Shown here piece after piece: positions 987-44,796 of a stretch of DNA of 64,000 bases. Every line of letters begins with the position of its first letter. Position 1 is the stretch's first letter. The notes below the pieces were generated by a model, which worked only from the letters and a program-made list of their open reading frames with translations, was not told where the DNA came from and searched no databases. The stretch is taken from positions 248,001 through 312,000 of the forward strand of contig MU004239.1 of the NCBI GenBank assembly GCA_010405405.1, given 5' to 3'. The stretch is from Microthyrium microscopicum (Eukaryota > Ascomycota > Dothideomycetes > Microthyriales > Microthyriaceae). Position numbers and translations under genes: made by a program.

Positions 987-1586
987 ATTGAAGCTCTATC
1001 TTTGTAAATCAGGCAATGTTGAGAGAAGTATCAAGTGGGCAGTAAGACGGACGCTAGCAAGTCTCGTCCTATATACTTTGAGCTGGTTGAGGAAGGGAAG
1101 CCATTGACATCAGAGGTGCGACGCGGTTAGAGATCGGCTCTAAGGCTGTAAACATGGTTGCGGCAGAATATTGATCTGATTGGTTCATGTGTTTGTCGAT
1201 GGTTTGGAGATAGAGCTTGTCTTATTCTCCGCCATTGGGTACCGTATGTTATGCTTTATCTAGATATCGTGATCGCACGCCAATCACGTTATTTATGCTG
1301 ATACATTTTTTTCCATCTCCACGATATCTTTAGGTGGAGGGCACGCAACAGATCAAGTCAGCCGGTGATATCGTGGGGAAATACCAGGGATGATGTCACG
1401 ACTGCCTCTCATTGGCCCTATCATGATCTGATGATCCCCAATCTTTCCCATGTCCTTGCCGCTCATCCCTCTTCTTCTGTCTCTTCTTTCTCTGCAGAAC
1501 TCCCTTTACACCTTCGTTCCAACCTCAAGAATAAAACTTGGTGTCTGCTTATGTTGTAACTGCTCCCGAACCCGGAACTCGACTCC
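987..1586. other. Divergent intergenic region
   Basis: This 600-bp gap lies between two divergently transcribed genes and should hold both promoters. I see pyrimidine-rich runs just upstream of the plus-strand start (about 1440-1500), typical of fungal 5' leaders. The short frames here overlap the flanking genes in other phases and do not look like proteins. Confidence 0.4.
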
Positions 1587-3326
1587 ATGTCCTCTCCTCG
1601 ACCTTCGTCCAGCGGCGGCCGACCACTCACTCCAAAACACCATGACTGGGTCACTGTGGGGCTATTAATATCTTTAGCTCCCCTGTCCATTACTCTAGGC
1701 CTGTTGGTTGCTTTGTCTGATGCTGTGTCAAGGGTTGTTGGACACAGGGGAAAGCTACTTCCTCGACTAAATGCACAATCGAGCAATCGCCGCCTCAATG
1801 GACGTCCCCAACCCCCGAGCCAGTCAGTGGAGACCACTGCTATCCTTGAACAGCCTAGGGGGCCAAAATATAATGTTTTGATAACTGGATCTACACCTTT
1901 GGCATTGGCAATGGCTCGAGAGTTTACTAAAAATGGTCACCGAGTTACCGTAAGCGATCACGAAACTGTTCGGCGAGTAAATCGAGCCCGATATTCGAGA
2001 GGCGTGTCGAGTTTCTTGCCGATGAAAAAGGTCGATACTTATGCTTGGCCATTGTTTGGTAGATCTACTCAGACTCTCAGTTTTCCCGAACAAATGCTTC
2101 TTGTTGTGAAGGCAAAACAACCGAATATTTGGCTACCATGTGATGATTCAATTACCGAGGAAGAAATGATGCAGGCAGTTGGGGTTATCAAATCGCGATA
2201 TCCAGAGATTTCGGTCTACTCACCTGGACCGGAAGCTCTCAATCTATCGTGGGACTCTACAGAATTTACTCAATATGTTGAATCTCTGGATCTCACTATC
2301 CGAACACCTAGAAGCTCGATTGTGATGAGCAGAGGCGAAGTTCATCGCATGATTGGATCGCCTGGGAGGACCAAATCAGTACATCTCACTGGACCAGTAT
2401 CAAACAACGGTACCCCGGAGCCTTTTGTGAAAGGCCATCGATGGCGAGACTCTGGATATTCCGAAGGCAGCTCCACTGATGGGAAAGATAGCTTGGAAAG
2501 CTCACAGTTGGAAAAGTCGTTTCACCTACCGCTTGAGAATTTAAGCAAGACATATGACCTCCTGAGCAGCCTTTCCATCAATTCTGTATCTCCTTGGAAA
2601 GCATCCAGTGTTGTAATCGGTCGACCTTGTATTGTTCATGCACTTATCGTTGAAAATTCCATGCGAGCATTTACCGCATATCTTGGAAGCAACAAGATTA
2701 CATATCCAGCAACCGAAGACAGCGAATCAGATTCGTTTGCAGACACCATTAATCCTATGGATCAGGATTCCCCTCTAGTTTCTACGCTTCAGCAATTCTC
2801 CAAAGGGTTCATTTCCAAACTCCCAGGTTACGTCTCCGGTACCATAAGTCTGCGGTTCATACTGGTAGAAACCTCTACATCCTTTGGTCTAGAAGTCAGA
2901 CCATGCATCATTCAATGCCAATTTGGTCTTCCTAAGGCTCTCCTAGGAATTCCAGACGCAGCGCCAACTTGGGCGCTGGGTATGGCCAAGCCTTGTGTTC
3001 GAATGAAGCAAAGACAAGCATCAATTCCAAAACAAGAAATCACATCTGGAATCAATACTGGAGTTTACTCTCTTCCAGGAGCATTTTTCTTCCTCTTCCT
3101 GCGATCGATATTTGGTTTTGTCACGTTCCAGCTCTGCACATCCGATGTGCTTTGCCAATGGCGAGTCTTTGTGGATAAGGTAATGTATTGGAGAGAAGAA
3201 CTGTGGGATTCTGAAGATCCAGGTCCTTTCTTTTGGTTCTGGATTGTAGAACAACCAATCGTTGCATTTTTAGAGCTGCTTTCTCGCATATTAAGGACAT
3301 TTAGAATTATGGCGCCGCTGGAATGA
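1587..3326 (+). CDS. Membrane-anchored degenerate ATP-grasp-like protein, 579 aa
   Basis: Single exon, 579 residues. A hydrophobic segment near residues 20-45 (VGLLISLAPLSITLGLLVAL) predicts an N-terminal membrane anchor. It is followed by a Rossmann-like pre-ATP-grasp domain starting NVLITGSTPLALAMAREF, with a later acidic position (VSDHE) and an LPCDDSITEE segment, as in carbamoyl-phosphate-synthase-like ATP-grasp proteins that begin 'VLxTGxxxPxALxLAR'. A Ser/Thr-rich linker (about 250-320) precedes a C-terminal part (SGTISLRFILVETSTSFGLE) that resembles the ATP-grasp substrate-binding end, but I do not find a convincing ATP/Mg site. A second hydrophobic segment (PGAFFFLFLRSIFGFVTF) lies near residue 500. 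Family membership is inference; the ligase reaction may be lost. The start is the first ATG giving the anchor. Confidence 0.55.
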   Translation: MSSPRPSSSGGRPLTPKHHDWVTVGLLISLAPLSITLGLLVALSDAVSRVVGHRGKLLPRLNAQSSNRRLNGRPQPPSQSVETTAILEQPRGPKYNVLITGSTPLALAMAREFTKNGHRVTVSDHETVRRVNRARYSRGVSSFLPMKKVDTYAWPLFGRSTQTLSFPEQMLLVVKAKQPNIWLPCDDSITEEEMMQAVGVIKSRYPEISVYSPGPEALNLSWDSTEFTQYVESLDLTIRTPRSSIVMSRGEVHRMIGSPGRTKSVHLTGPVSNNGTPEPFVKGHRWRDSGYSEGSSTDGKDSLESSQLEKSFHLPLENLSKTYDLLSSLSINSVSPWKASSVVIGRPCIVHALIVENSMRAFTAYLGSNKITYPATEDSESDSFADTINPMDQDSPLVSTLQQFSKGFISKLPGYVSGTISLRFILVETSTSFGLEVRPCIIQCQFGLPKALLGIPDAAPTWALGMAKPCVRMKQRQASIPKQEITSGINTGVYSLPGAFFFLFLRSIFGFVTFQLCTSDVLCQWRVFVDKVMYWREELWDSEDPGPFFWFWIVEQPIVAFLELLSRILRTFRIMAPLE

Positions 3327-3738
3327 TGGGGGAAGTTTACACGAACTGTATATATTTAACGACATAGGTATACGATTATGAACATACACGCATTTCAAGC
3401 ATTTATTCTGAAAAGATATCCTTTTCGTATTTCTATGAACTTGCCAAATATGTAGTAGATTGGAAAACCTCGGTCCATTCTTTATCCTTGTAGCTCGAAG
3501 CTTTCGAAGCTCTCGAAGCTCTCCAGAGTCCAAACCACAAAATCCCATGTTACACAACATCTACACCGCAAAATCTAACACATGAAATCCCGCACACCCA
3601 CATTGTCCCTCCCAGACTATACGCGAGAACATATATGCGCCCAGATCCTCCTACATAAACCACCAACTGCCCCACCTCCTCATTCCCTCTCTCCCCTCTT
3701 TATACCGTGCGTCTAACGAAGTCACGAATCCCAAAAAA
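3327..3738. other. Intergenic region with short CTCGAAG-type repeats
   Basis: No gene seen. It holds the 3' end of the ATP-grasp-like gene and the promoter of the thioesterase gene. Around 3493-3525 the sequence repeats AGCTCGAAGCTTTCGAAGCTCTCGAAG-type units (about 9-10 bp each), a short imperfect tandem repeat. A C-rich, pyrimidine-rich leader precedes the next ATG. Confidence 0.35.
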
Positions 3739-4404
3739 ATGACAACAAAATTCCAATCCCAAGACCACTCCATCGCTCCCAACATCGCGCACTTCTCAAA
3801 AATCCCCTGGTGTGCTACCTACCTCTCCAACCCCGCCTGGACGCTCGTCCCAACGCGCTGCCGCGAACCTAAAGAGAGTACCGAGGACTCTCTATTCAGC
3901 ACGGCGCTTCAGACACCATCTACGATATCGCACCACCTTACACTCGCCAACGTCCCAAGTCTGCCATTGAAAAGAGATCGTGTATTGGAATGGCGGATCG
4001 CGTCCGGTAGCAAAGAAGCTGCGGATATGGGGTTAAGGATACCAGCGACACAGACGTTCTGGAGTCTAGGCGCGGATCTCAATGGCTTTCCGAATGTTGC
4101 GCATGGGGGCTTATTGGCGGCGTTGCTTGATGAGGCGATGGGACTATTGCTCACAGTGAATGGGGAGTTTGGTGGCGGTAGTGGGGCCTTGATTAATGCG
4201 GTGACGGTGTTTATGAATGTACGGTATCGTGCGCCGGTACAGACGCCGGGGACGGTGTTGGTGGGCGCTAGGTGTACGAAGAAGGAGGGACGGAAGACGT
4301 TTGTGAGCGCGCAGGTGGTGCAGTGGCAGGAGGAGCAGGGGAAGGAGGTGGTGTGTGCGGAGTGTGAGGGGATGTATTTGGAAGTCAAGGAGACGAGGCT
4401 GTAG
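3739..4404 (+). CDS. Hotdog-fold thioesterase superfamily protein, 221 aa
   Basis: Single exon, 221 residues. The C-terminal half carries the PaaI/4HBT hotdog signature: GFPNVAHGGLLAALLDEAMG (His about residue 122, with the Gly-Gly turn and the Asp-Glu of the central helix), then INAVTVFMNVRYRAPVQTPGTVLV and an EGRKTFVSAQV strand. These proteins hydrolyse acyl-CoA or acyl-carrier thioesters, usually as dimers or tetramers. The N-terminal ~85 residues contain SNPAWTLVPT and DSLFSTAL segments seen in fungal members of this family that precede the fold. There is no clear mitochondrial presequence. The substrate cannot be told from sequence. Family call is firm; the biological role is unknown. 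Confidence 0.8.
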   Translation: MTTKFQSQDHSIAPNIAHFSKIPWCATYLSNPAWTLVPTRCREPKESTEDSLFSTALQTPSTISHHLTLANVPSLPLKRDRVLEWRIASGSKEAADMGLRIPATQTFWSLGADLNGFPNVAHGGLLAALLDEAMGLLLTVNGEFGGGSGALINAVTVFMNVRYRAPVQTPGTVLVGARCTKKEGRKTFVSAQVVQWQEEQGKEVVCAECEGMYLEVKETRL

Positions 4405-4783
4405 ATGGTGAGATACTTTGATATTCTTGGGCGATTTGGCAGGATAACGAGCATTTGATATGTTTGGATGATATAGATTTGGATATATTCGCCTCCACTC
4501 CATTCTCCGCTGGTAGGTATATTCAGACACATACAAGTACATTAAAAACTTCCCATCAGACAGCCATACAGACGTTGCATGGCTTGACAAGCGACTGATA
4601 TCTTCCGTTGCAGTTCTGAATATTCTGTCAACCAATCGTCTGTCGCTACTAGCATGTGTGCCGCAGATGATTTATATGGCCGTGTTCCTTGCTTCAGGGG
4701 TTCGAAATTGGTTCGAGATTCACGAAGTAGGCCTTTAAAGATGTATTCGCAAGCTCGCCCATTTCTTCACGATTTCTGTTCTT

Positions 4784-20821: not shown

Positions 20822-23167
20822 TCAAAGAGCTCTTGCCCCGATATCTTTCCGAAACTGCATGCCTTCGAAATTTATGCTTTTGACTCCTACATAAGCCTTT
20901 GCGATGGCTTTTTCTAGAGTTTCCGCCGTAGCTGTTGATGCAATCACTCTTCCACCTGACGTCTTCAGCTCCCCATCATTCAATACGGTCCCAGCATGGA
21001 ACAATACGACATCTATAACTAGTTAGATGGCATATACACTAGATGCAGTTCTGTACAACTTACCGCTTGGTACTGCTTCTATACTCATATGAGTGCCCTT
21101 CTTGTATGAATCAGGATATCCTCCAGCTGCCACTACCACCGTAGCAGCACACTTCTTCGACACTTTGACATCGACTTGGTGAAGTCTACCTTCCGCAGAT
21201 GCCATCAAGATCTCTGCCAAATCCGAGTCAAGTAGTGCCATCAGACTTTGCGTCTCTGGGTCACCAAAACGGACGTTATACTCCAGCAATCGAGGCCCGT
21301 CCTTGGTGATCATATAACCAGTGAACAGACAGCCTATGAAAGGATATCCGTCCTTTTTCATGCCTTCAATTGTCGGCCGAAGAACAGTATCATCAATCTG
21401 CTCCATAATTTTCTGGGTGACGATTTTTGTTGGCGCAGGCGCATAAGTCCCCATTCCTCCAGTGTTCGGACCCTTATCACCCTCAAAGATTCGTTTGTGG
21501 TCCTGAGCAGGCGGCAGGCTCTTAAAAGAGTTGCCATCACAGAAACTCAGTATGCTAATTTCGTCGCCTTCAAGGAATTCCTCAATCACGACTTCGTTTC
21601 CAGCATCTCCAAAGGCTTTGTCTAGCATGACTTCCTTTATGGCTTTGTGTGCTTCTTCTTTGTTTGCTGGGATAATCACACCTTTGCCAGCTGCCAGGCC
21701 ACTAGCCTTGACGACGACATTGTGATCTATCGAGTCAAGATATTTTCGAGCCGCTTCGTAGTCATCAAAATTTTCATATCGGGCGGTTGGAATGTTGTAC
21801 TTTTTCATAAAGTCTTTGGAGAATGTCTTGCTTCCTTCCATGTGTGCTGCTTTGGCGCTTGGCCCGAAGCTTTTGACTTTTGGCGCATGTTTTGCGAAAA
21901 AGTCTACAATCCCGTCTACTAGAGGTTGCTCTGGCCCGGGAATCAAAAGATCAATGTTGTTGGATTTGGCGAACGTGGCAAGATCTTCAAAGTTTGATGC
22001 CGAGACTGTGCTTAGGTTCGTCGTCTTGGCCAGTGAAGATGTTCCCCCATTACCAGGGCAGACAAACAGCTGGGAAACTGTCGGGGATTGAGACAATTTC
22101 CAGGCCAACGCATGCTCACGGCCGCCGTTGCCAACAAGGAGCACTCGAAGACCACCCCATTTTTGGCCAGTAAGGCGTTCATATGCTTCCACGTAACCTT
22201 GTCGAGTTCGATCAACAACGTCTGCAGGCATGCTCACACCGTCTTTGCCTTTCAGTCCATTGTCAATAAGCCAGTCTCGTAGGTATTGCTTGTCCAAACT
22301 TGACTGCGACTTTCCCACCTGATATTTCTCCGTATCCCAGAATCTGCTGCTATCCGGCGTCAAAACCTCATCAATGAGGACGACAGAAGGCGGCGAAGTA
22401 GCCTCGTCCAGTCCAAACTCAAACTTTGTATCAGCAATGATGATGCCACGCTCCGCTGCATAATCCCGCGCAGTCTTATACAACTTCAAAGACAGTGCTG
22501 CGATTGCGTCTGCATAGTCTTTGCCTACGATTCCAGCTGCTTGCTCGGGAGAGATATTCTCGTCTTTCTCACCCACTTCTGCTTTTGTGCTAGGAGTCCA
22601 GATTGGTTGTTCGAGTTTTTCGCTCTCTTGCAGGCCTTCTGGCATTTTCATCCCATGGACAGTCCCGGTCTTCTTGTACTCGCTCCAGGCGCTACCGGTT
22701 ATGTAGCCACGCACTATAGACTCGATTGGAAATACTTTGAGCTTCCTCACTTGCATAGATCGATCCTGCGCCGCTGCTGCATCTTCAGATGCTGCTAATT
22801 TGGCGGGTAGATCTAGAGTCAGCAGGTGCGTTTTGAGATCTGGAATGGCTTTGCTGAGAACCGAGAACCAGTGGGCAGTAAGTCGAGTCAACAAAGCCCC
22901 TTTATCTGGAATCCCATTGGACAGAACCTGGACACCTATCAGAAGTGTCAAATATTGAAATCCAAATGACATACAACATCGAAGGCGCTCACCCTGTCTG
23001 TGGCCACAAACAGGATAGTCGAATCATCAACTTCATAGAGCTCTCTAACTTCAAAAAGGTCAGTATATATACGTTCGAGACGCTATAGCTTGCTCACCCT
23101 TGCCGGTTGAAAGATGCTTGAAGTGTTTCGAAAGGTCAGTGCTCACGACGACTTGATTTGGTGCCAT
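20822..23167 (-). CDS. ADE1-ADE5: Fused SAICAR synthetase - GAR synthetase (PurC-PurD), 732 aa
   Basis: Four exons: 23167-23098, 23048-22975, 22927-21064 and 21012-20822, 732 residues. Residues 1-305 are complete SAICAR synthetase: STGKVRELYEVDD, FVATDRVSAFDV|VLSNGIPDKG, VRGYITGSAWSEY, IADTKFEFG, ending YVEAYERLTGQKW. After only GGL, GAR synthetase starts at residue 309 (RVLLVGNGGREHALAW) and runs to the stop with all ATP-grasp marks: VVKASGLAAGKG, EEFLEGDEIS, DHKRIFEGDKGPNTGGMG, EYNVRFGDPETQ. There is no AIR synthetase domain. The two parts catalyse nonadjacent purine steps (phosphoribosylamine to GAR; CAIR to SAICAR). Most ascomycetes have ADE1 alone and GARS fused to AIRS (ADE5,7). The fusion lies inside one uninterrupted exon, so it is not a splicing artefact of my model. 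Confidence 0.9.
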
Positions 23168-40219: not shown

Positions 40220-43200
40220 CTACGGATTCCAAACCGCTCCTCCATGATAACTAGCAATCTCCTCCTTCGTAATCCCACTCCTCTCACACATGCCACTAAA
40301 TATCCCACCCGCCTCAAACAACCTCAACGGATTATCCACCTCCGCAATACGCCCCTGATCCATCACCACAATACGATCATACGAGATAATCGTCTTCAAT
40401 CTATGCGCAATGCAAAGCAGCGTCTTACCCTTGAAGGCCGTCATGATCGTATTCTGAATCTTCTTATCCGTCTCAAAATCTACAGAGGACGTGGCTTCGT
40501 CGCACACGATGATTTGTGAATTTCGCACAAGTGCGCGCGCGAGTGCCATCATTTGCCGTTGGCCGAGGGAGAAGTTTAATCCTTCTTCTTCGACTGTGCT
40601 GTCAAGATGCAATTTGCCCTGCTTTTCTTCGTCGCCTGTGATGCCCTTTGCTGCATCGGCGGTGGCTTGTTTGGAGGCGGCGAGGGCGGTGGCGGCAGTT
40701 TGTACATTGTCGCTTTCTACGAGATCGGCGGCGCGGAGCGCGTGCCAGAGCTCGAGGTCGGTGTGTTCGCCAAAGGGGTCGAGGTTGGAGCGGATGGTGC
40801 CGCGGAAGAGGGTGGGGTCTTGGGGAATGATGGAGAGTTTTGTGCGCAGGTCGAGGAGGCCGATGGTGGAGATGTCGATGTTGTCGATTGTTATGGAGCC
40901 GCCGGAGATTTCGACCATGCGGAATAGGGTGCTCATGATGGAGGATTTGCCGGCTCCGGTGCGGCCGACGATGCCGATGCGTTCGCCGGGTTGGACGTGG
41001 AGGTCGAGATCTTTGAGGACGAGGGGGAGACCGTCGCGGTAGCGCATTTGGACGTGGTTGAATTTGATTTCGCCGCGTTGGGGCCAGGATTCTGGGACGG
41101 GGGCGAGGTGGGCGGGTGCTTCTTCGTCGAGTTCGGTGGCGTAGTAGTGGAGGCGCTCGGTGGAGTTCATGTTGTTTTCTACTTCGGCGAGTTGGCGGAC
41201 GGTGAATTGGATCATTTGCACGATGGAGAGGATGTAGGAGAGTACGAGACCGCCGATGGATGGGTTGATTGAGAAACGACTCGTGACGACGAGGAGACCG
41301 ACGGTGAAGACGAGCAAGTTTCCTATACAGTCGAGACGGATGGATAGCCAGCGCTGGTTGGCGAATGTGAGGAAGTAGATTCCATTCATGCCGTCAATGG
41401 CATCGCGGACGCTTTCGCGGAATCGATCCTCAAGACGATAGGCGCGGATTGTGGCGACTCCAGAGACAGCTTCACTGAAGCGTGAGAAGACGTATGAACG
41501 CTCGACAGCTTCGTGACGCTTGATTTCACGGGCTGAAGATCGATAGTAGGCGGCGGAGAAGCAGAAGCCGATGAAGAGTGGTCCTAGTGCTACGGCAAAG
41601 TAGTGGAAGTAGGCGATGATGAGCGCGAATACACTTATGATCATGCCGAGGGTCATGAAGTACATTCTCATGGCATCAGTCAAATTGTTGTCCATGGTAT
41701 CGATATCTCGAGAGAATCGATTGGTGATACGTCCAAGTGGCGTGGTGTCAAAGAATGACATTGGTGCTCTTAGTACTCGGCGCATGGAATCTCGAAGCAT
41801 GTGTTTGCTAGCCTGGGTTCCGAATACTGAGAGTGATAGAGAGTATAAGAACATGAATAGAGATTGACTGGCTCCAAGGGCGGCATAAACTCCAATCTGA
41901 TAGTACGGTTAGATCATCACTTTCAAATCGGATTGGCAAACTTACGTATACTCCTTTGGAATAGCCCCATTTGTTTGCAGTCCACCAAGAAAGCCAAAGA
42001 CTGGTTGCAATGTTGGAACCTTGAGTGAGTACCAAGAGCACAAATACCAAAGGCGCAACCCAGTATCCGCCAGCTGCTTTGACGTAAGCTCCATAGACTC
42101 CCCAGCCTACAGCCTTGGTCTGTCGTTCTTCGATGGTCATGAGAGCAACACCCTTTTTCGCACCCTTTGTCGTAGCCTTCTTCTCTTCTTCAATCTCATC
42201 ATTAATTTCTTCTTTGACCTCTTCCTCCTTTTCTTCTTGGCTAGTGCTAGACATGAGTTTCTGGAACTCTTCGCTCGTAGCCATAAGATTGTTGAAAGTA
42301 TCAATAGTCTTGATATGGCCATCATCCATCCATATAATTCGGTCGCAACGATTGAGTACGTGTAATTGATGGGTAGCAAGGATTCGGCACTTGCCCTTGA
42401 GTAGACCACAGATGGCATTGTCCATGATGTGGCGTCCAACATGAGCATCGACAGCAGATAGAGGATCATCCATCAGGACAATGTCCGCGTTGAAGTATAT
42501 CGCTCGTGCAATGTTCAATCGCTGTTTCTGACCTCCTGAAACGGTGATACCACGCTCACCAATCTCAGTCATGTCGCCATTTGGAAGCATCTCCAGATCG
42601 GGCCGTAGTGCACAAGCATCGACAACAGTATCGTACCAAGCCTGGTCAAATTCCTGTCCAAATACAAGGTTGTCGCGCACTGTAGTATTTTGAATCCAGG
42701 CATATTGAGGACAAAACGCGCGACTGGCACCCATCATGATTCGACCTTCAGTTTTGCGCATGTCACCAGCCAATGCCGCAAGCAAAGAGGATTTGCCGGA
42801 GCCGACTGTACCAATAACTGCAACGAGTTCATCTCGGCCTATACCAAAGTTCATGTCGTGGAGTTTGTATGGTTCCAATTCACGCGTAGAATCTTCGTCT
42901 TCCTTTTCACCTTTTGCCTTTCTCTTCGCGGCGTCCTTGTCGGACTTTTTGACAGCTTTGCGTTCGGCTTTGAGCGCTTTGGAGGACATTTTGCCTCTAC
43001 CTGGCTCCTTGTCAGGATCTTGAGTTGGGGCACGTTCCCAAGTAAAGCTGGCGTTCTCCAATGCAACAGCGTTCTTGTTCTCATAGTCCCACTCAAAATC
43101 TTCACTGGCTTCTTCGGCGAGGAGGAACTCCTGGATTCGGCGTACTGATGATATAGCGTCAATGACTTGTCCAAGTACCAATGGCAAGAAGTTGAGGGGC

Positions 43201-44796
43201 ATTCGAAGGCCGTTGAAAAGAGCGAGAGACGAAAAGATTGGTGCTGGATTGAGCTCGTGGTTTGACACAGAGTAAACGATGAATGCAATCATCGAGGCAA
43301 ATACAGGTACTGACATGGAAACAGCATTGATGGCGTTTCGTGTAGCCAGCAATTTCTGGATTGAGAAAATCTCACGTTTTCGAATTGCGAAAATTCGATC
43401 CAGAAACGACGCTTCCCAACCAAAGAACTTGACGAACCGAACAGATTGCAAAATCTCTTGAGTCATCGTAACACGTTGATCAGTGACTTTGTTGATGCCG
43501 ATACGACGCTTGAGTAATCCTCGAATCGCCCGAGCAAGGATTGGCATGGCAATGAGGAGAAGTGCAAAACCAGCAAGAGCACTGTACGTCAAGTTGATAA
43601 CCAAGAGTACCAATGCAATAAGGATCTGAATTGGGGCAGTCCAAAGCATATGGAAGAAACCAGAAGCTTGATCAACACGATAAGTGTCCACAGACATGAG
43701 ATTGATGATTCGACCATTGCTCCAGCCTCGACCGTCGCCGAGAATACCGGTTTTATCGGGAAGTTCGGCCTTCTTTGTCTTTTTCTTGAGTAGTTTCTTG
43801 TACCATTTTCTTTCTTCTTCGCTACCAGGCTTGATGTGTGGAGGGGGCATCTCAAGTGATTGGCCACCGGCTTTGGCTCTGCCAGATAGGCGCATAGCCT
43901 TGTCGAAGATGACTGTCATAAGAACAGCACGAAGTTGACCACCAACCATCATACCACGATAGAGAAAGTGATTACCGCAAAGAGATGAGGCAACCTGAAG
44001 AACCAGAATTCCAACCACAAGGCCAATACCACGGGATAGTGGCGGAGGTGCTCCGCCGTCGAATTTAGCGATATATGCATCTTGAGCAAAGGCGATGAGA
44101 AATCGTAGAAGAAAAGGGGACACAGTCTGAATGACTGATGACATGAGCTGGCAAGCACCACCTAGCAAAAATTCGAATTTAACAGTGTCGTAAAGTGCTC
44201 CTAGGAGCGGCCGCTTATCACCACGATCTAGGCGAGTCTTGAATGAAGCGTTGAGTTTGGTGGCTAATACTCGTGATGCCCGGTCAGGATTGACCAGGTA
44301 AAGATCGTTTAGTTCCAGCGTTCGCTTATAGCCAGTCTAAACTTTGGTTAGTAAATTGTTCAATCACTTGAAAAGGACTTCGTGGAAGCTTCTGCAAAGA
44401 ATGCAATGTTGCTGGAATTAAGAGCCAACTTACAGTCATCACCGGTTGAATCCATTGGAATATTAGTCTGCTGACCCAGTTGGCAGTATACTCTCTTGAA
44501 ACCTGTCTTTCTTTGGGTACTGGAGGAGGATTCCGCTTCAGTGGATTGAGTCGTCGAGACCATTTTTGTTTGGCGGGTTTTGATTGGATTGAAGTAGTTT
44601 CGTACATGATCTCAGAGCCCTTGGATGGCGAGCGAGAGAGTTGTCGTGACGAATTCTCTTTTTCAAGGCTGGTCATGATTTCCTTCTCGTCTCCATCTGC
44701 TGGAGATGCAACTGGCTCATCTTGAGCAGTAGTATTCGCCCCAACGGAAGGGTCGTTGGACTCCCACTCCTTCTCTGTTTGGCGTGGATTGCTCAT
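40220..44796 (-). CDS. YOR1: Full-size ABCC multidrug transporter, YOR1-like, 1476 aa
   Basis: Three exons, 44796-44434, 44336-41946 and 41896-40220, 1476 residues, both introns phase 0; yeast Yor1 is 1477 aa. There is no N-terminal TMD0, as in Yor1. Residues 1-95 are Ser/Glu-rich; TMD1 starts near ANWVSRLIFQWIQPVMT. NBD1: Walker A GTVGSGKSSLL, signature VSGGQKQR, Walker B IVLMDDPLSAVD with the Asp typical of MRP NBD1. A basic insertion (KKSDKDAAKRKAKGEKE) precedes NBD1, and an acidic coil (QEEKEEEVKEEINDEIEEE) follows it. NBD2: GRTGAGKSS, FSLGQRQ, IVCDEATSSVD with catalytic Glu, and the switch AHRLKT. It exports organic anions or drugs at the plasma membrane. A transposon lies about 480 bp upstream. 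Calling it YOR1 is by architecture and length. Confidence 0.88.

Follow-up and report, generated by a model that had tools for sequence, protein, structure and literature searches.

GAR synthetase (GARS, PurD) and AIRS form a single bifunctional enzyme, GARS-AIRS, in C. cinerea, S. commune, yeast and N. crassa; the enzyme occurs across fungal clades, and a tree of its fungal members has been given (PMC7552465). Yeast and C. cinerea have SAICAR synthetase (PurC) as a protein of its own (PMC7552465), and for C. albicans GAR/AIR synthetase is listed under one gene (PMC5488104). In vertebrates several purine steps are likewise carried on one chain, by PAICS, which covers CAIR and SAICAR synthesis, and by the trifunctional GART, which comprises GARS, GART and AIRS (PMC10912719).

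We analyzed a stretch of 64,000 nucleotides from the ascomycete Microthyrium microscopicum (the window), which corresponds to positions 248001-312000 of contig C10 in an assembly of 36.9 Mb and 20 contigs. It includes a gene in which SAICAR synthetase runs directly into GAR synthetase. The GARS half of this gene groups with the GARS of the fungal GARS-AIRS enzymes (yeast ADE5,7; Coprinopsis ade8). However, the window GARS comes after SAICAR synthetase and has no AIRS behind it, while AIRS is found after homoserine kinase on another contig. The monofunctional SAICAR synthetase of PDB entry 1a48, presumably yeast Ade1, aligns with the window protein over nearly its whole chain, but in the window there is no stop and GAR synthetase continues. 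Vertebrate PAICS and GART are multi-step chains as well, although neither joins PurC to PurD. Very probably this bifunctional polypeptide, in which the sole SAICAR and GAR synthetases found in the assembly are joined, arose by the split of a fungal GARS-AIRS gene, with the halves rejoined to the products of ADE1 and THR1.

Neither a PurC-PurD nor a homoserine kinase-AIRS fusion was described among the literature matches listed by full-text searches, which consisted mostly of titles and the starts of abstracts; the searches covered published papers, and many deposited proteomes may contain the PurC-PurD fusion without remark. The main text of a study of gene fusion and fission across 12 species of fungi (PMC2557144) includes none of the terms purine, ADE, phosphoribosyl and THR1.

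The PurC-PurD gene

The PurC-PurD gene lies on the minus strand at positions 20822-23167 of the window, from an ATG at 23167 to a TGA ending at 20822, and encodes 732 residues in four exons. The initial annotation had given precisely this span, leaving the strand unstated. Exon 1 (23098-23167) carries the start codon and is separated by a 49-base intron (23049-23097; GTGAGC...AAG) from exon 2 (22975-23048), which is followed by a 47-base intron (22928-22974; GTATGT...CAG). Exon 3 (21064-22927; 1864 bases) contains most of both enzymes together with their junction, and a third intron of 51 bases (21013-21063; GTAAGT...TAG), inside the PurD span, precedes exon 4 (20822-21012), which ends in the TGA stop. 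All three introns are of the form GT...AG and were placed from the sequence rather than from transcripts, those splice sites of intron 1 by means of the reading frame and the alignment to PurC of 1a48. The spliced frame has no internal stop over its 732 residues.

SAICAR synthetase (PurC, Ade1-like) occupies residues 1-305 (22157-23167, a span that includes introns 1 and 2) and GAR synthetase (PurD) residues 309-732 (20825-22147, including intron 3). The junction consists of residues 306-308, Gly-Gly-Leu (22148-22156, inside exon 3), so that the NCBIfam domains are separated by three residues, in frame and with no stop codon. The PurC stop and the PurD start have been lost, with almost no sequence left between the enzymes. 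No methionine occurs between residues 281 and 411, which leaves Met281, 28 residues before residue 309, as the start that an independently translated full GARS would need. In a Pfam scan of the protein, SAICAR_synt, GARS_N, GARS_A and GARS_C scored above cut-off and no AIRS domain was detected. The spliced frame and the Pfam and NCBIfam matches bear out the description first given of this locus, that of a direct PurC-PurD fusion within one exon and without AIRS. The protein also has no AIR carboxylase (AIRC) domain, the domain that is fused to PurC in PAICS.

Both halves appear to be complete enzymes. The PurC half matches NCBIfam PRK13961 (purC) at residues 13-305 with 371 bits (cut-off 251), covering profile positions 10-296 of 297, and also TIGR00081 (275.6 bits; cut-off 189.9) and PF01259 (253.5; cut-off 20); the full-length match above the curated cut-off places it in the SAICAR synthetase family. 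Fusion residues 9-306 align with residues 5-305 of the 306-residue chain of 1a48 (E 3.6e-110), and the two have the blocks VRGYITGSAW, DTKFEFG and DEVLTPDSSRFW in common. Among PDB chains, 1a48 and 1obg, both of which we take to be yeast Ade1, score 371 bits, and the next chain, 3r9r, 239 bits. The PurD half matches TIGR00877 (purD) at residues 309-732 with 537 bits (cut-off 288), over profile positions 2-424 of 425. It has the N, ATP-grasp A and C domains of the GAR synthetase family along with this full-length match, and its alignment with GAR synthetases of solved structure runs from residue 1 or 2 of the half to its end (E 2.1e-140 for PDB 7lvo). Judged by these sequence scores, the matches to both domains are beyond chance.

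Copies in the assembly and a counterpart on contig C6

Genome profile searches, in which only the best candidates are scored, identified one match each for PF01259 (SAICAR synthetase), PF01071 (GARS_A) and PF02844 (GARS_N), all of them in the fusion gene. No second SAICAR or GAR synthetase was found by these searches in the 36.9 Mb assembly, which may be incomplete. As the sole genome matches for the two enzymes lie here, the locus looks like a rearrangement rather than a spare copy. The clearest evidence came from a genome search with a presumed yeast Ade5,7 sequence as query, which gave two matches and no others: query residues 2-441 in the fusion gene on C10, and residues 446-795 in a gene on contig C6. 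AIRS thus sits on C6 and not C-terminal to GARS in one chain, as it would in ADE5,7. PF02769 (AIRS_C) matched three stretches of the genome: a single one on C6, and a pair on C2 within one long frame that is PurL-like by eye. The initial annotation had proposed searching the genome for ADE1, ADE5,7 and AIRS. There is no second ADE1 and no intact ADE5,7 among the matches; AIRS is present, fused to homoserine kinase.

The C6 gene (positions 2188-4603 of locus L009; introns inferred at 2251-2420, 2783-2832 and 3327-3392) encodes 709 residues, or 710 depending on the acceptor chosen for intron 2. Its product matches thrB (TIGR00191) at residues 5-348 with 339 bits (cut-off 168) and, behind it in the same spliced frame, purM (TIGR00878) at residues 360-694 with 408 bits (cut-off 236). 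When the homoserine kinase half was used as a genome query, its three matches were all exons of this same gene; the C6 fusion is the only copy of AIRS and of homoserine kinase found in the assembly. Homoserine kinase is an enzyme of the threonine pathway. Unlike the PurC-PurD junction, the C6 junction retains a methionine where AIRS begins, and internal initiation there might yield AIRS as a separate product. For both genes, the continuous in-frame junctions, the full-length halves and the single copies are read from the sequence itself.

Third-position GC is 0.49 for PurC, 0.47 for PurD, 0.48 for ThrB and 0.63 for AIRS; nine frames of the window range from 0.42 to 0.65, and the AIRS value falls within this range. 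The motif TGASTCA, which we take to be the amino-acid control site, occurs twice in the window, against 10.9 sites expected by chance, and neither site is near the PurC-PurD gene. In locus L009 it occurs once (0.86 expected), 441 bases upstream of the start of homoserine kinase.

Other purine genes were located in the same assembly. PF00551 matched C4 (PurN by eye) and C11; PF01808 (PurH) gave two matches side by side on C4; and PF00731 (PurE, AIRC) gave a single match (C6:2248889-2249323), in a frame that opens with a sequence PurK-like by eye. No obvious foreign partner was seen in the PurN, PurE, PurL-like and PurH genes, within the parts of these genes that were read by eye. As far as tested with these four, the rearrangement is confined to the two ADE5,7 halves and their two partners. 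Beside PurH on C4, a minus-strand frame (L067:3034-3498), which runs off the locus, contains a roughly 40-residue repeat in four similar copies, three joins having the form KKRQLLNDLSPD; it resembles a class of fungal proteins that are cut by Kex2 at Lys-Arg. No 5.8S rRNA match was obtained in the assembly, either with the family model, for which 39 of 1125 candidates were scored, or with a presumed 5.8S DNA query, in searches without a positive control, and the rDNA of the assembly may be missing or masked.

Origin of the two fusions

Phylogenetic trees suggest that the GARS and AIRS halves are related to fungal enzymes. In the larger PurD tree, which comprises 32 bacterial and two eukaryotic sequences and in which the bootstrap had not settled, the window PurD pairs with 7lvo (99/96). 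In a smaller tree, to which a presumed yeast sequence was added, it groups with 7lvo and yeast (99/98). Human GARS falls outside the group of 7lvo and the window PurD in both trees, and among bacteria in the smaller one. The C6 AIRS pairs with the presumed yeast sequence (100/96), within a group that also has human and 7lvp (99/97), and when yeast is left out it pairs with human (97/85). The trees with the presumed yeast sequences have 20 and 22 rows, with only two fungal rows besides those under study, one of them the presumed yeast. Sequence identity of the window PurD is 55% to 7lvo, 49.4% to the presumed yeast sequence and 49.5% to bacterial locus L014; that of the C6 AIRS is 56% to its presumed yeast counterpart. 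With these few fungal rows, the groupings (99/98 and 100/96) agree with descent of the halves from fungal GARS and AIRS, and vertical descent from a fungal GARS-AIRS gene is the best reading of the trees. A bacterial origin of GARS or of AIRS is disfavoured by them.

Since both halves group with fungal enzymes, the best reading would be that the ancestral GARS-AIRS gene, of the ADE5,7 type, split and that each half came to lie C-terminal to another enzyme. GARS would have been attached to the C-terminal side of the ADE1 product and AIRS, on the other contig, likewise to that of the homoserine kinase (THR1) product. From the two genes we infer this history, whatever the order and number of its events, together with the activity of both halves in each fusion and the mode of action.

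A scan of prokaryote contigs with six short peptides as queries, which is no census, returned 32 loci encoding a relative. No single-frame PurC-PurD fusion was present among these 32 loci. Only two, L013 and L034, matched over both the PurC and PurD halves; the other 30 showed only PurD, except that L035 and L039 combined it with a PurC-like match on the other strand. L013 (positions 1272-3056; Bacillota) has purC and purD adjacent and in the same frame, like the window fusion, but differs from it by one stop and six codons and was rejected as a fusion, being a tandem of genes with a stop between them. The L013 contig includes a run of N. L034 (positions 2365-4287; Oscillospiraceae) was rejected also: it has a 640-residue PurN-PurD frame and a separate PurC-like frame, so that PurD stands behind a purine enzyme as in the window, but the partner is PurN by eye. 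L013 illustrates a short route from a purC-purD tandem to a fusion, yet transfer of such an operon is unlikely.

Several other explanations of the locus were considered. The initial annotation left two options, that the organism had rearranged its purine genes or that the fusion existed in addition to normal ADE1 and ADE5,7 genes. The single matches for PF01259, PF01071 and PF02844, all in the fusion gene, support the former and give no support to the latter. The assembly could miss genes, of which the failure to find 5.8S rRNA is a weak sign, but the Ade5,7 query reached only the two halves and AIRS was found without GARS; a PurC-PurD side product with the normal genes elsewhere in the genome therefore seems very improbable. 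Still less probable is the acquisition of a bacterial purC-purD operon and its fusion through loss of the stop codon. The L013 tandem offers a model for this event, and some bacterial PurD proteins resemble the window PurD as closely as the presumed yeast sequence does. However, the window PurC is far nearer to 1a48 and 1obg than to 3r9r, with 42% identity to the PurC of L013, PurD groups with fungal rows in both trees, the gene has introns, and AIRS has been displaced too. We regard as least probable of all that two neighbouring genes or a chimeric contig were mistaken for one gene. Although the locus is seen in a single assembly, the junction lies in frame in an uninterrupted exon at the borders of both domains, and a second fusion, on a different contig, carries the complementary half of ADE5,7.

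Predicted function and implications

With both enzymes full length and the only ones found, the PurC-PurD fusion most likely functions as a bifunctional enzyme, making both GAR and SAICAR. PurD catalyzes step 2 and PurC step 7 of the purine pathway (PMC10912719). As these steps are five apart, direct transfer of a product between PurC and PurD is not expected. The gain from the fusion would be mainly fixed co-expression from one promoter, a 1:1 ratio and tethering, which is a simpler proposal than channelling. Other proposals concern function only, namely metabolite channelling or coupling by the fusion, tuning of GAR synthetase by SAICAR synthetase activity, or a role as the anchor of a purine enzyme assembly; they appear unlikely. 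The very short junction could restrict domain movement, and the fusion is the only copy found of both enzymes, but neither fused enzyme acts directly after the other in the pathway, and non-consecutive reactions are also joined in ThrB-AIRS and in the common fungal GARS-AIRS enzyme (steps 2 and 5).

Under the split of ADE5,7, both halves would have swapped partners to give two new bifunctional enzymes, PurC-PurD and homoserine kinase-AIRS. The latter enzyme may bring purine and threonine synthesis into physical connection, perhaps by way of threonine to glycine, a substrate of the purine pathway; we give this proposal as a whole an even chance. Threonine can serve as a source of glycine, which is a GARS substrate. 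It is conceivable that the C6 fusion links the two pathways in this manner; GARS itself is absent from that fusion.

If this history is correct, a broken GARS-AIRS with rejoined halves would show that multi-enzyme fusions can be rewired, and the split and rejoining would be a rare, nearly irreversible marker for the clade that bears it. The two genes would also provide a natural test of whether enzyme fusion serves channelling or co-expression alone. Both fusion genes would be given wrong names wherever annotation or an auxotroph screen takes ADE1 and ADE5,7 for granted. Deletion of one should block two purine steps, and deletion of the other a purine and a threonine step.

Elsewhere in the window, two overlapping minus-strand frames (40220-41854 and 41808-44168) each encode an ABC transporter membrane domain and ATPase domain. 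Together (40220-44168) they probably constitute a single complete transporter gene, the two frames being separated by an intron or a frame change.
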